39,758 nucleotides of DNA from the NCBI GenBank assembly GCA_025360455.1, contig JANYCF010000296.1, forward strand, positions 1 through 39,758. Direction: 5' to 3'. Origin of the DNA: Opitutaceae bacterium. GTDB taxonomy: Bacteria; Verrucomicrobiota; Verrucomicrobiia; Opitutales; Opitutaceae. Below the pieces are notes generated by a model that worked only from the letters and a program-made list of their open reading frames with translations, was not told the DNA's origin and ran no database searches. A program made the translations under genes and the position numbers. This document shows, in pieces, positions 22,072 to 36,008 of the stretch. Each line of letters begins with the position of its first letter. Within the stretch, counting starts at the first letter, position 1.

Positions 22072-22243
22072 GTTTATTCAGTGAAGCTCACCCGCACTTG
22101 CCATCAGCAAAAAGTCGCTTTGGCACAGAAGTGGAAATCTCAAAACCTCCACCACCCGCAAAGTTTCGCTTGTCATTTCGTTGGATTCTTCGGATCACCA
22201 AATTTCAGCGCCACGAAATCATTTTGAACTCGAAACAATTACT

Positions 22244-23338
22244 GTGAGCAAGAAACTCTCTCCGCCCAAGAAATCTCCCGAAGCCGCCAGCTATAATGCC
22301 CGGCAGGCCCACATCAACGCCCGCTTGGGCCATGATGAATTAATCGCACTCTACCGCGACATGGTCCGCATCCGCCGTTTTGAAGAACGCTGCCTGCGCA
22401 GTTACCAGCAGGGCAAGATCGGCGGCTTCCTCCACCTCTACATCGGACAGGAATCCGTCGCCATCGGCTGCGTGTCCGTCATGGGCGACGACGATCATAT
22501 CATCACCGCTTACCGCGACCACGGTCACGGCCTCGCCGTCGGCATGGGCATGAACGAAATGATGGCGGAGAACTACGGCAAGTACACCGGTTGCTCCAAG
22601 GGCAAGGGCGGCTCGATGCACTATTTCGATCCCTCCCGCAATTTCTGGGGCGGCCACGGCATCGTCGGCGGCCAGATTCCCCTCGGCGTCGGCCTCGCCT
22701 ACGGCTTGAAATATCAGGGCCGCAAAGGCGCTTGCTTGGCGTTCATGGGCGACGGCGCCGTGAATCAAGGTGCCGTGCACGAGGCCTACAATCTCGCCGC
22801 CCTGTGGTCGCTGCCGGTCATATTTGTCATTGAGAACAACGGCTATTCGATGGGCACCAGCCAGGAACGCTCCTCCGCCGGCCCGAGCCTCGCGCAGCGC
22901 GCCGAAGGCTACGGGATGAATTGGGATATCGTGGAAAACGGGCACGACATCCTCGAAGTCCGCGACAAAGTCGGCCACGCCCTCAAGCTCGCCCACGAAA
23001 AATCACTCCCGAGCGTCATCGAGATCCGCACCTACCGTTACCGCGGCCACTCCGTCGCCGATCCCGACACCACTTACCGCCACAAAAACGAAATCGAGGA
23101 ATACAAGAGCACCAAGGATCCGCTCATGGTGTTTCAGGCCGCTATGCTGGCCGAGAAAGTTCTCACTGACGAAATCATCGCCAAGATCGACGAGTCCGCC
23201 CGCGCCGAAGCCGAGACTTCCGCGCAATTCGCCGAAGCCAGCCCGTACCCGACCGTCGACGATATCCAGAAAGACGTTTACTGGGAGGCCGATAATCCCG
23301 CCGACCGTAAATCCCAAGGCACGCTCTTCTTCAACTAA
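22244..23338 (+). CDS. pdhA: Pyruvate dehydrogenase E1 component, alpha subunit
   Basis: Thiamine-diphosphate-dependent decarboxylation of pyruvate in the pyruvate dehydrogenase complex, together with the E1 beta subunit. The 364-residue protein shows the ThDP-binding motif GDGAVNQG followed by IENNGYSMGTS, the substrate-region stretch KGKGGSMHYF, and the loop YRYRGHSVADPDTTYR. The GTG at 22244 (MSKKLSPPKK) is preferred; the frame reaches back to a TTG at 22181 with little family likeness. It is first in the E1 alpha-E1 beta-E2 cluster. Branched-chain or acetoin dehydrogenase is the main alternative, but the E1 alpha lengths and the E2 favour pyruvate. Confidence 0.93.
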   Translation: MSKKLSPPKKSPEAASYNARQAHINARLGHDELIALYRDMVRIRRFEERCLRSYQQGKIGGFLHLYIGQESVAIGCVSVMGDDDHIITAYRDHGHGLAVGMGMNEMMAENYGKYTGCSKGKGGSMHYFDPSRNFWGGHGIVGGQIPLGVGLAYGLKYQGRKGACLAFMGDGAVNQGAVHEAYNLAALWSLPVIFVIENNGYSMGTSQERSSAGPSLAQRAEGYGMNWDIVENGHDILEVRDKVGHALKLAHEKSLPSVIEIRTYRYRGHSVADPDTTYRHKNEIEEYKSTKDPLMVFQAAMLAEKVLTDEIIAKIDESARAEAETSAQFAEASPYPTVDDIQKDVYWEADNPADRKSQGTLFFN

Positions 23339-23394
23339 GCCGCCCAGGATTCCGGCTCTCCACTCTCAGCTCTCAACTCTCAACTTTTAGCCAC

Positions 23395-24372
23395 ATGCCT
23401 GTCATCACTTACCGCGAAGCCCTCCGGCACGCCATGGACGAGGAACTCGCCCGCGATCCCAACGTCGTCATCATGGGCGAAGAAGTCGCCCAGTTCAACG
23501 GCGCCTACAAGATCACCGAAGGCCTTCTCGCCAAATACGGCCCGAAGCGCATCGTCGATACGCCCATCAGCGAAGCCGGTTTCATCGGCATGGGCCTCGG
23601 TGCCTCGATGCTCGGCGTCCGCCCCGTCATGGAACTGATGTTCTTCAGTTTCTACTCCGTCGCGTTCGACCAGATCTTCAACAACGCCGCCAACGTCCGC
23701 TACATGTCCGGCGGCCTGATCAACTGCCCGATCGTCCTCCGCGGTCCCGCCAACGGCGGCACCAACGTCGGCGCCACCCACTCCCACACGCCCGAGTCCA
23801 TCGCCGCCTACCACCCGGGCGTCAAAGTCTGCGTGCCCTCCACGCCCGCCGACGCCAAGGGCCTGCTCAAGTCCGCGATCCGCGACAACGATCCCGTCAT
23901 CTTCCTCGAGAACACGCTCCTCTACGGTGAATCCGGCGAAGTTCCCGAAGGCGAACACCTCGTTCCGCTCGGTTCGGCCAAAGTAATTCGTGTGGGCAAG
24001 GATCTCTCCATCATCGGCCACGGCCGCACGATCCAGCTCGCATTAAAAGCCGCCGATCTCCTCAAGGAAAAGCACAACATCCACGCCGAAGTCGTCGATC
24101 TCCGCTCCATTCGTCCCCTCGACGAAGAGACGATTCTCGCCTCCGTCCGGAAAACCAATCGCGCGCTCTACGTCGAAGAAGCCAAGCCCTTCTGTTCCGT
24201 CGGCGCCATGGTCGCCTGCCTCATCCAGGAAAAAGCCTTCGACCACCTCGACGGTCCGGTCAAGCGCCTCAACTCGATCGATGCCCCCGCGATCTACTCG
24301 CCACCCATCGAAAAACTCCAGCTCCCCACCGTCGAACGCATCTACCAAGCCGCCCTCGACACCCTGAAGTAA
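23395..24372 (+). CDS. pdhB: Pyruvate dehydrogenase E1 component, beta subunit
   Basis: The 325-residue beta subunit pairs with the E1 alpha product to form the alpha2-beta2 decarboxylase. Typical blocks are ITYREALRHAMDEEL at the N-terminus, IMGEEVAQFNGAYK, DTPISEAGFIGMGLGASM with the ThDP-contacting Glu, and RSIRPLDEETI plus VEEAKPFCSVGAMVA in the C-terminal transketolase domain. It starts 56 bases after E1 alpha behind a CT-rich leader (CTCTCAACTCTCAAC) with no Shine-Dalgarno sequence. Its stop codon overlaps a palindromic repeat that separates it from E2. Confidence 0.95.
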   Translation: MPVITYREALRHAMDEELARDPNVVIMGEEVAQFNGAYKITEGLLAKYGPKRIVDTPISEAGFIGMGLGASMLGVRPVMELMFFSFYSVAFDQIFNNAANVRYMSGGLINCPIVLRGPANGGTNVGATHSHTPESIAAYHPGVKVCVPSTPADAKGLLKSAIRDNDPVIFLENTLLYGESGEVPEGEHLVPLGSAKVIRVGKDLSIIGHGRTIQLALKAADLLKEKHNIHAEVVDLRSIRPLDEETILASVRKTNRALYVEEAKPFCSVGAMVACLIQEKAFDHLDGPVKRLNSIDAPAIYSPPIEKLQLPTVERIYQAALDTLK

Positions 24373-24507: not shown

Positions 24508-25902
24508 ATGGCTCAAATCATCGATATGCCGAAACTCAGCGACACCATGACGGTGGGCACGCTGGTCAAGTGGCTCAGAAAAGAAGGCGACGCTGTGAAG
24601 TCCGGCGACATCCTCGCCGAAGTCGAAACCGACAAAGCCACGATGGAACTCGAGTCGTTCTTCGACGGCACGCTCCTCAAAATTTTCGCCCCCGCCGGTT
24701 CCCAAATCGCCGTCGGCGCCGCCCTCTGCGCCGTCGGCAAACCCGGTGAGACCGTCGAAGCCCCAGCCGTAGCGCAGGCTTCCCAGCCTGCCTCTGCTCC
24801 GAAAAATGGAGGGCCGAACTCCAGCGAGGCCGCGAAAACCGCCCCAATTTCCCACTTGGACATTCCGCGCTCCACCACGGCCGTTCCAGCGACCGTTGCC
24901 CCGGCACCCGTCGTTGCGGTTCCTTCTGCCCCAGAGCCCAAAGCCGAGACCCCATCTCCGGCGTCGGCCTCCGACGCCCGCCTCCGCATCTCCCCTCTCG
25001 CGAAAAAAATTGCCGCCGACCAAAAGGTTGATGCCACCCGCGTCACCGGCACCGGCCCGCACGGCCGCATCGTCAAAGCCGACGTCCTCGCCGCCGCCGC
25101 AAATCCCGCGCTACTCAAATCCGCTGCTGTTGTGGGCGGGGTGCCCTCACCCCGCGGCGCATCACCCTCGCTCCTCACCAAAGGTCCGATTCAAGAGGAG
25201 AAGCTGGCCCCCGTCTCCACCATGCGCGCCGTCATCGCCAAGCGCATGGTCGAGTCCACGACCACTATTCCCTACGTCTACCTCGACATCGAAATCGACG
25301 CCGAGCCATTGCTCGCTATCCGCGCCCAACTCAACACCGGTCTCGAAAAAGAAGGCGTCAAACTTTCGGTCAACGATTTCATTCTCAAAGCCAGCGCTGA
25401 AGCCCTGCGCCGCGTTCCCGCCGTCAACTGCTCGTGGGAGCCATCGACAGGCTCAGGCCAGGCGGCCGCCATCCGCCACCACGGCGCCGCGCACGTCGCG
25501 TTTGCTGTCGCGCTCGAAGACGGCCTCATCACACCTGTCGTCCGCGACGCGCACCTGAAGAGCGTCTTTCAAATCAGCACCGAAGTGAAAGTCCTCGGCA
25601 AGAAAGCCAAAGAGAAAAAACTCGCCCCCGCCGACTACACCGGCGGCACGTTCTGCGTTTCCAATCTCGGCATGATGGGCATCCCGAAGTTCACCGCGAT
25701 CATCAACCCACCGAACGCCGCGATCCTCGCCGTCGGCACCACGGTCGCCAAGCCCGTCGTGAAAAACGGCCAGATCGTCGCCGGCCAGACATTGACCGTC
25801 ACGCTCAGCTGCGACCACCGCGTCTTCGACGGCGCCGTCGGCGCCCACTTCCTCGGCGCACTGAAAGATCTCCTCGAGAAGCCGGCGCTGCTGCTGGTGT
25901 GA
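24508..25902 (+). CDS. pdhC: Dihydrolipoamide acetyltransferase (E2) of pyruvate dehydrogenase
   Basis: Transfers the acetyl group from lipoamide to CoA and forms the complex core. The 464-residue protein has an N-terminal lipoyl domain with Lys43 in VETDKATME. An Ala/Pro-rich linker (about 80-150) precedes the peripheral-subunit-binding domain RISPLAKKIAADQ...GPHGRIVKADV. The catalytic domain ends with SCDHRVFDG (His437, Asp441). The linker and the catalytic domain carry segments that look like translated genomic repeats, notably AQASQPAS (near 90) and EPSTGSGQA (311-319), the latter directly after the conserved VNCSW. E3 is not in the window. The gene is followed by a strong terminator. Confidence 0.95.
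   Translation: MAQIIDMPKLSDTMTVGTLVKWLRKEGDAVKSGDILAEVETDKATMELESFFDGTLLKIFAPAGSQIAVGAALCAVGKPGETVEAPAVAQASQPASAPKNGGPNSSEAAKTAPISHLDIPRSTTAVPATVAPAPVVAVPSAPEPKAETPSPASASDARLRISPLAKKIAADQKVDATRVTGTGPHGRIVKADVLAAAANPALLKSAAVVGGVPSPRGASPSLLTKGPIQEEKLAPVSTMRAVIAKRMVESTTTIPYVYLDIEIDAEPLLAIRAQLNTGLEKEGVKLSVNDFILKASAEALRRVPAVNCSWEPSTGSGQAAAIRHHGAAHVAFAVALEDGLITPVVRDAHLKSVFQISTEVKVLGKKAKEKKLAPADYTGGTFCVSNLGMMGIPKFTAIINPPNAAILAVGTTVAKPVVKNGQIVAGQTLTVTLSCDHRVFDGAVGAHFLGALKDLLEKPALLLV
24769..24823. repeat. Repeat-like insert in the E2 linker
   Basis: GTAGCGCAGGCT-TCCC-AGCCTGC (24769-24791) contains a perfect 7-base stem. It is followed at 24807-24823 by TGGAG...CTCCA, a second small palindrome with a GGGCCGAA centre. 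Both resemble dispersed non-coding repeats, but here they are translated in frame within the flexible linker. Confidence 0.6.
25136..25155. repeat. Perfect 8-bp-arm palindrome in E2
   Basis: GCGGGGTG-CCCT-CACCCCGC lies in frame in the second linker, just before the catalytic domain, encoding GGVPSPRG. It could be a repeat-derived insert or chance in a GC-rich linker. Confidence 0.55.
25438..25464. repeat. 27-bp repeat-like insert in the E2 catalytic domain
   Basis: TCGACAGGCTCAGGCCAG (25444-25461) resembles the dispersed motif inside the repeat at 31354-31391, which reads TTTGCTCAAGGCCCTGAGCC. It encodes EPSTGSGQA between the conserved VNCSW and AAIRHHG, where other E2 proteins have a shorter loop. 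The length of 27 bases keeps the frame. Confidence 0.65.
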
Positions 25903-25907
25903 AACTT

Positions 25908-25929
25908 GTAGGAGCCTGCTTGCAGGCGA
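25908..25929. repeat. REP-like palindrome, single copy
   Basis: GTAGGAGCCTGCTTGCAGGCGA forms a short hairpin (GCCTGC-TT-GCAGGC). It matches each arm of the pair at 35934-36008 apart from two central bases. It has the look of the GTAGGAGC...GCGA REP class of Pseudomonas. It lies 6 bases after the E2 stop. Confidence 0.8.
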
Positions 25930-31341: not shown

Positions 31342-31458
31342 GTAGCCGCGTTGCCTTTCGACTTTGCTCAAGGCCCTGAGCCTGCCGAACGGGGAGCGTA
31401 GCGACAACGTGGTCTGCCCAACGGACCACGCTTTCGCCTCCGGCTCAAGCGCGGCCAC
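31342..31458. repeat. GTAGCCGCG palindrome with a nested CTCAAGGCCCTGAG insert
   Basis: The left arm starts GTAGCCGCGTTG and the right arm ends AAGCGCGGCCAC, with ACGTGGTC...GACCACG at the centre. The left arm is interrupted at about 31354-31391 by a different repeat with the palindromic core CTCAAGGCCCTGAG. The right arm reversed (GTGGCCGCGCTTGAGCC) matches the left outer arm of 15307-15504. It lies between the AKR-like gene and pyruvate carboxylase. Confidence 0.8.
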
Positions 31459-35933: not shown

Positions 35934-36008
35934 GTAGGAGCCTGTTTACAGGCGACCCCAACGCGCGCCATCGGCGGAAATTCGTGTCGCCTGTAAACAG
36001 GCTCCTAC
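35934..36008. repeat. Inverted pair of REP-like units
   Basis: Perfect 23-base arms (35934-35956 and 35986-36008) read GTAGGAGCCTGTTTACAGGC followed by GAC, and the reverse. They are separated by 29 bases. Each arm is itself a hairpin, so the unit can fold as a clover-like structure. The same unit occurs singly at 25908-25929. It sits between a plus-strand gene and a convergent minus-strand gene. Confidence 0.92.

Follow-up and report, generated by a model that had tools for sequence, protein, structure and literature searches.

Palindromic repeats within protein genes are easily dismissed as noise or as an oddity of Rickettsia. The locus analyzed here raises the question of whether such repeats have supplied peptide sequence to a core enzyme. 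A preliminary description of the window, by which we mean the whole stretch of 39,758 nucleotides from an Opitutaceae bacterium, had proposed that mobile palindromes were inserted in frame at three sites of a gene for a dihydrolipoyllysine acetyltransferase (PDH E2). The window is contig 278 (G000:C278) of a 4.85-Mb genome that is divided into 405 contigs.

Interspersed repeats in the linkers of PDH E2

The E2 gene and the elements found inside it, behind it and elsewhere in the window are the following:

24508..25902, plus strand: PDH E2 (dihydrolipoyllysine acetyltransferase), 464 aa, recognized by Pfam domains and PDB matches to PDH E2; domain order lipoyl domain, linker 1, E3-binding domain, linker 2, catalytic domain
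24769..24791, plus strand: repeat A, GTAGCGCAGGCTTCCCAGCCTGC, in frame in linker 1; 32 genomic places
24807..24823, plus strand: hairpin TGGAG...CTCCA; no genomic repeat
24960..24978, plus strand: perfect hairpin GGCGTCGG-CCT-CCGACGCC in linker 1; not seen as a repeat
25130..25155, plus strand: repeat B, TTGTGGGCGGGGTGCCCTCACCCCGC, in frame in linker 2; 15 places with an identical 20-nt core
25441..25467, plus strand: repeat C, CCATCGACAGGCTCAGGCCAGGCGGCC, in frame in the catalytic domain; 14-nt core at 9 exact places
25908..25929, plus strand: repeat D, GTAGGAGCCTGCTTGCAGGCGA, a REP with a GTAG tag, shortly downstream of the E2 stop codon; untranslated
31375..31388, minus strand: core resembling that of C, within a repeat element that lies outside E2; differs from the E2 copy by 1 mismatch

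The E2 protein matched the Pfam families Biotin_lipoyl (5-74), E3_binding (160-194) and 2-oxoacid_dh (230-463), and its closest named relatives are Opitutaceae records, e.g. from Lacunisphaera and Oleiharenicola. The two ORFs upstream (22181-24372) presumably encode E1 alpha and beta. Repeats A, B and C all lie inside E2 and are all read in the E2 frame: three different interspersed repeat families in one gene of central metabolism. The motifs on which the preliminary description was built were seen in the sequence where it had placed them, and within the reading frame.

The E2 copy of repeat A consists of GTAGC followed by GCAGGCT-TCCC-AGCCTGC (7-bp stem) and encodes VAQASQPA, residues 88-95. 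The 32 genomic places, which include the E2 copy, were found when loops of 2-6 nt were allowed; the control yielded 0. The loop is 4 nt long in the E2 copy (24774-24791) alone, 2 nt in one place and 3 nt in the other 30, and when the loop of the pattern was fixed at 4 nt the E2 copy was the sole match at 0 mismatches. The longer loop is perhaps an adjustment to the reading frame. The common genomic form of the repeat is GTAGCGCAGGCTTCCAGCCTGC. A GTAG tag is present in 28 of the 31 listed copies, and in most listed copies an inverted GCAGGCAAGGATGCCTGCGCTAC-type partner follows closely downstream (both read by eye); the E2 copy is a single unit without an inverted partner. Repeat A dimers were also found on both sides of a Y1_Tnp match (locus L052; 25.2 bits, cut-off 23). 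Repeat A has the features of the GTAG REP superfamily, namely a tag beside a hairpin, interspersed inverted dimers and association with RAYT/TnpA-REP.

A second palindrome in the first linker, TGGAG...CTCCA, had been counted with repeat A as a mobile element. This part of the proposal was discarded, since the 25-nt pattern covering it (24807-24831) has a single match in the genome even with 3 mismatches allowed. The hairpin at 24960-24978 had no second true copy in approximately 428 kb of DNA from the same genome (redundant loci included).

The proposed repeat in the second linker was borne out. Repeat B in E2 is composed of TTGTGG and GCGGGGTG-CCCT-CACCCCGC (8-bp stem) and encodes VGGVPSPR, residues 209-216; 16 genomic places match the pattern without mismatch, and the 15 that are identical in the 20-mer include the E2 copy. 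At up to 3 mismatches, 49+40 matches were obtained on the two strands against 0+2 for the control, one place often being counted on both strands because B is palindromic. The starts of inverted pairs are 48 nt apart in ten cases and 49 nt in one, and GTGG, sometimes GTAG or GGAG, stands ahead of the 8-bp stem (by eye). With a GTAG/GTGG variant beside a hairpin and with dimers, repeat B conforms in these two respects to the description of a GTAG REP.

Repeat B was found in further E2 genes. The second linker of E2 from L101 contains the identical 20-nt core in the same frame, and a GTAG-tagged B-like unit, again in the same frame, is present in E2 of L277. In a second 2-oxoacid dehydrogenase E2 of the window genome (L207, G000:C255:309-328), repeat B lies in a linker and is read in the same frame as in PDH E2. 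The linkers of the relatives aligned were too variable for the addition of A and B to be traced precisely. Other repeat-like peptides, such as KTEDGG and SGFRSQVSGF, were noticed in the E2 linkers of relatives (e.g. L072, L075, L102 and L109), and repeats of diverse kinds may accumulate there.

REPs flanking a Y1_Tnp gene are expected of RAYT-REP pairs. The genome has 14 Y1_Tnp matches, 12 of them above the curated cut-off. Besides the dimers of repeat A at L052 (contig 219), repeat D units were found on both sides of the Y1_Tnp gene in L047. No copy of B or C occurred at the 14 Y1_Tnp loci, for which at most 1.5 kb on each side was covered (shorter where a contig ended); a repeat B pair lies approximately 2.1 kb from the Y1_Tnp gene of L052. 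Within the window, repeat D (GTAGGAGCCTG...CAGGCGA) occurs as a single unit behind E2 and as an inverted pair at 35934-35955 and 35987-36008.

Repeat C in a turn of the catalytic domain

Repeat C encodes PSTGSGQAA, residues 312-320 of E2. Its core, TCGACAGGCTCAGG, occurs at 9 exact genomic places including E2 and at 34 places when up to 1 mismatch was allowed, against 1 in the control. The genomic repeat announced for the catalytic domain was thus found; the palindrome was not, as the 14-nt core is no palindrome by itself. In approximately 21 of 33 listed copies (by eye) repeat C forms one half of a longer inverted element, which is not the case for the E2 copy. Neither a GTAG or CGTC tag nor a hairpin of its own was present when these were looked for in the E2 copy, and C was therefore classed simply as an interspersed repeat. 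The likeness to a non-coding repeat near 31354-31391 was confirmed by the C-like core at 31375-31388; two window matches to a related pattern were obtained where 0.10 were expected. Widespread copies elsewhere in the genome were found for all three of A, B and C.

The turn that follows VNxSW was compared in 126 distinct E2 sequences of the family, taken from 162 loci. PST[GS]SGQA between VNxSWE and IR was found in five of them, and the full insert is absent from the other 121. A short turn is present in 115 (a count read by eye, as the automatic pattern misread some rows). In the remaining six (L257, L264, L282, L087, L100 and L255) the turn is partly lengthened, by 3-5 extra residues with SGQ or NGQ, and these could be relics of an older insert. 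Three E2 sequences of the PDB (8piu, 6ct0 and 8x03, two of them human) have seven residues fewer at the site. Repeat C thus lengthens the turn by 7-8 residues in comparison with most relatives, in agreement with the extra residues described after VNCSW.

A model of the catalytic domain (40 sequences) reached a mean pLDDT of 85.6 and a pTM of 0.83, and the predicted fold agrees with solved E2 cores of mammalian, fungal and bacterial origin. The insert corresponds to model residues 87-95, a coil that joins strand 83-86 to strand 96-99 and has a block pLDDT of about 80. The C insert is predicted on this basis to occupy a beta-hairpin turn, which is where an addition is best borne.

The five carriers of the full insert belong to three genera: the window genome and G096 are of the same genus, G142 and G060 belong to g17, and G030 to g31. 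Eight of the 252 family genomes contained the E2-site pattern with C, and five of these matches lie in E2. In an order-wide search of 372 genomes (G030, G060 and G142 were outside the draw) six matched, and only those of the window and G096 were in E2. No E2 was found at the remaining loci of the order-wide search or at the three non-E2 matches of the family. All five carrier genomes contain further copies of the repeat C core; the residues were thus not shared by relatives that lack the repeat.

Three repeats in frame, one of them in the same loop across three genera, suggest that repeat DNA has added residues to a core enzyme. We consider it likely that E2 took up three repeat families in frame: A and B, GTAG-type REPs, in its flexible linkers, and C, of 24-27 nt, in the turn. 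Of the earlier proposal that mobile palindromes gave peptide to E2, the contribution of genomic repeats is well supported; their movement is what we infer. The copies in E2 would stem from repeats resident in the genome. A, and perhaps B, could have arrived by way of a TnpA-REP/RAYT single-strand transposase. Copies would survive just where the protein tolerates them, which would explain why the repeats sit in linkers and in a hairpin turn. Near-neutral tolerance is our default view of the added peptides.

Origin of the insert shared by three genera

The C inserts of any two carriers are identical in 23-26 of 27 letters. They also use codons that are rare in E2 genes: TCA (5.6% of Ser) occurs in all five, and ACA (4.6% of Thr) in three of the five. 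Near-identical letters and otherwise avoided codons indicate that the likeness arose at the level of DNA and not by convergence of the peptide.

In an E2 tree calculated without the insert columns, the five carriers fell in four places. A single clade for all five was rejected (p-AU 4.5e-63, 47-row tree; the carriers were defined as a group after inspection of a tree), and a clade of the window and G096 was not rejected (p-AU 0.20). The fewest changes on the 47-row tree were four, a count that cannot separate gain from loss.

The carriers are also rich in the repeat. Each of the five belongs to the 23 genomes, out of 252, that have at least 9 places of the C pattern (by eye; the threshold was chosen after the carriers had been seen), an overlap with a hypergeometric probability of 4.1e-6, or 5.4e-5 if four lineages are counted. 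This test is partly circular, because a repeat-free genome could hardly carry a C insert. In 18 of the 23 repeat-rich genomes the insert pattern was not shown.

These findings could be due to the turn after VNxSW being a recurrent landing site: on three or more occasions C would have entered at one and the same codon boundary and in one frame, adding PST[GS]SGQA to the catalytic core on every occasion, and some copies would later have been trimmed to shorter SGQ turns. We put this forward tentatively, as a reading with somewhat less than an even chance. On balance we favour more than one entry of C over a single one, and take old inheritance and the exchange of short tracts seriously as alternatives. 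With the 9-26 C places of the carriers, the probability that a randomly placed copy falls in a particular 27-nt stretch is approximately 1e-4 per genome; the turn must therefore be favoured as a site, filtered by tolerance, or inherited. Separate random insertion is disfavoured, because boundary and frame are the same in all five carriers.

The last of these three options corresponds to one ancient insertion of C in an early E2 of the family, which was inherited, mostly lost and in some lineages trimmed to the SGQ turns. The carriers agree not only in boundary and frame but also in a CAGGCGG[CG]C tail. Within each carrier, C with the CAGGC tail and 0 mismatches occurs once, always in E2, and other copies show 1-2 mismatches; the E2 copies may share one origin, since the exact tailed form was found in E2 alone. 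A near form of the tail, CAAGC, is present in the IspE gene of the window genome. The lengthened turns occur partly in the same clades as the full inserts, which speaks for this view. Such a history would nevertheless require many losses, the tree minimum being four changes, and it fits poorly with the confinement of the insert to repeat-rich genomes. It is also difficult to reconcile with the degree of conservation, as the 150-nt flanks are 71-83% identical between genera, far below the agreement of the inserts themselves. We regard this explanation as possible, though not as the likelier one.

An E2 tract bearing the insert might instead have been exchanged between lineages, or the insert might occasionally have been overwritten by other repeat copies. 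A common tail and boundary would follow directly from exchange. G142 and G060 are sister species with 95.6% identity over 2872 nt. They differ at 3 of the 27 insert positions and at 6 and 2 positions of the 150-nt flanks, a pattern in keeping with overwriting. This excess is weak: its p value is 0.046 at 3% divergence, 0.11 at 4.4% and 0.002 at 1%. A resident donor was not found, in that none of the other copies listed, seven in G060 and seven in G142, reads like the E2 copy of its own genome. No shared flanking tract was seen among the carriers and flank identity is not raised: the window flanks are 0.81/0.82 identical to those of inserted G096, against 0.83/0.87 for uninserted L101 and 0.81/0.87 for L302. 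Exchange or overwriting is therefore unlikely.

It could also be that the peptide itself was selected, a longer SGQ turn being useful and the repeat happening to provide it. The common frame of the five E2 copies and the SGQ or NGQ of the six other lengthened turns agree with this. The large majority of E2 sequences, as counted above, keep the short turn, and C is read in the same way in IspE, an unrelated protein. We consider selection on the peptide improbable as the cause.

Perfect 8-bp hairpins are frequent in the E2 linkers of many relatives: 33 were counted in 53,187 nt of linker DNA, compared with 7 in the DNA of the catalytic domains (79,644 nt) and 5 in that of the lipoyl domains (34,110 nt). 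These are raw counts that include overlapping registers, with base composition not controlled. Chance formation in GC-rich Ala/Pro linkers probably accounts for TGGAG...CTCCA and for the hairpin at 24960-24978, but for A, B and C, which match genome-wide families far above controls, it is hardly credible.

If the turn is indeed a recurrent landing site, repeat DNA would be a lasting source from which core enzymes of Opitutaceae could draw preformed loop peptides. The turn provides a natural series of empty, lengthened and full states, in a well-understood enzyme, with which one can test how a repeat-derived peptide enters, is tolerated and decays.

Other host genes and comparison with known systems

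The coding context was scanned for 28 copies of A, 33 of B and 34 of C, of which 10, 11 and 11, respectively, lie in coding-like ORFs of at least 100 aa. Copies were retained when both flanks were scorable and above 0; the other 25 were dropped (short ORFs, ORF ends, mixed scores). Seven copies had coding-like flanks on both sides: three in PDH E2 and one each in MnmA, the second E2, IspE and a MetH-like protein. A C match in L193, which we take to be the natural P-loop of a helicase, was set aside.

In MnmA (L212, G000:C404; minus-strand ORF) a full repeat A dimer (VAQASSLHFAEAGKDACAT) is in frame, and 14 residues are missing at this position from the two PDB homologues aligned. In IspE, both PDB alignments stop ahead of the C site, and a gain of residues is not visible there. 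The protein of L003 (G000:C133) is presumably MetH-like, judging by its motifs; it seemingly contains several repeat-like insertions, including C from the opposite strand.

Intragenic REPs are known already, foremost from Opitutus terrae. According to the accessible text of Di Nocera et al. 2013 (PMC3733652), GTAG and CGTC REPs occur wholly inside the ORFs of unrelated proteins, O. terrae has the most intragenic GTAG repeats, and GTAG is mutated to GTGG in most of its GTAG-20 elements. The same text describes different REPs that occupy roughly matching positions in the recB genes of two Xanthomonas species, and discusses neutral insertion of REPs in linkers or loops. O. terrae belongs to the same family as the window organism, and the GTGG variant is also that of repeat B. 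Unlike the GTAG and CGTC REPs described in that text, C in E2 is untagged, and it occupies one and the same turn of the catalytic domain in three genera. A word search of the main text of that paper found neither "lipoamide" nor "pyruvate". A literature search covering papers without their supplements returned none with the exact C sequences and peptides, and none that combined REP, intragenic and dihydrolipoamide acetyltransferase.

The occurrence of A, B and D as inverted pairs, and of A and D on both sides of Y1_Tnp genes, resembles REPIN/RAYT systems. Unlike REPINs, the E2 copies are single units, and B and C were not found in the vicinity of a Y1_Tnp gene.

The classic case of in-frame palindromic repeats in unrelated proteins is that of the Rickettsia palindromic elements (RPEs; Ogata et al. 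2000, 2002), which measure approximately 150 bp according to the accessible text of a review (PMC10969869). By that description, the repeats reported here are like RPEs in lying in frame within unrelated proteins, and unlike them in being single units of 23-27 nt. An in-frame gain of residues relative to homologues, as in RPEs, was seen for C in E2 and for A in MnmA. What is new is E2 as host of three repeat families, with one site in its catalytic domain that is common to three genera.
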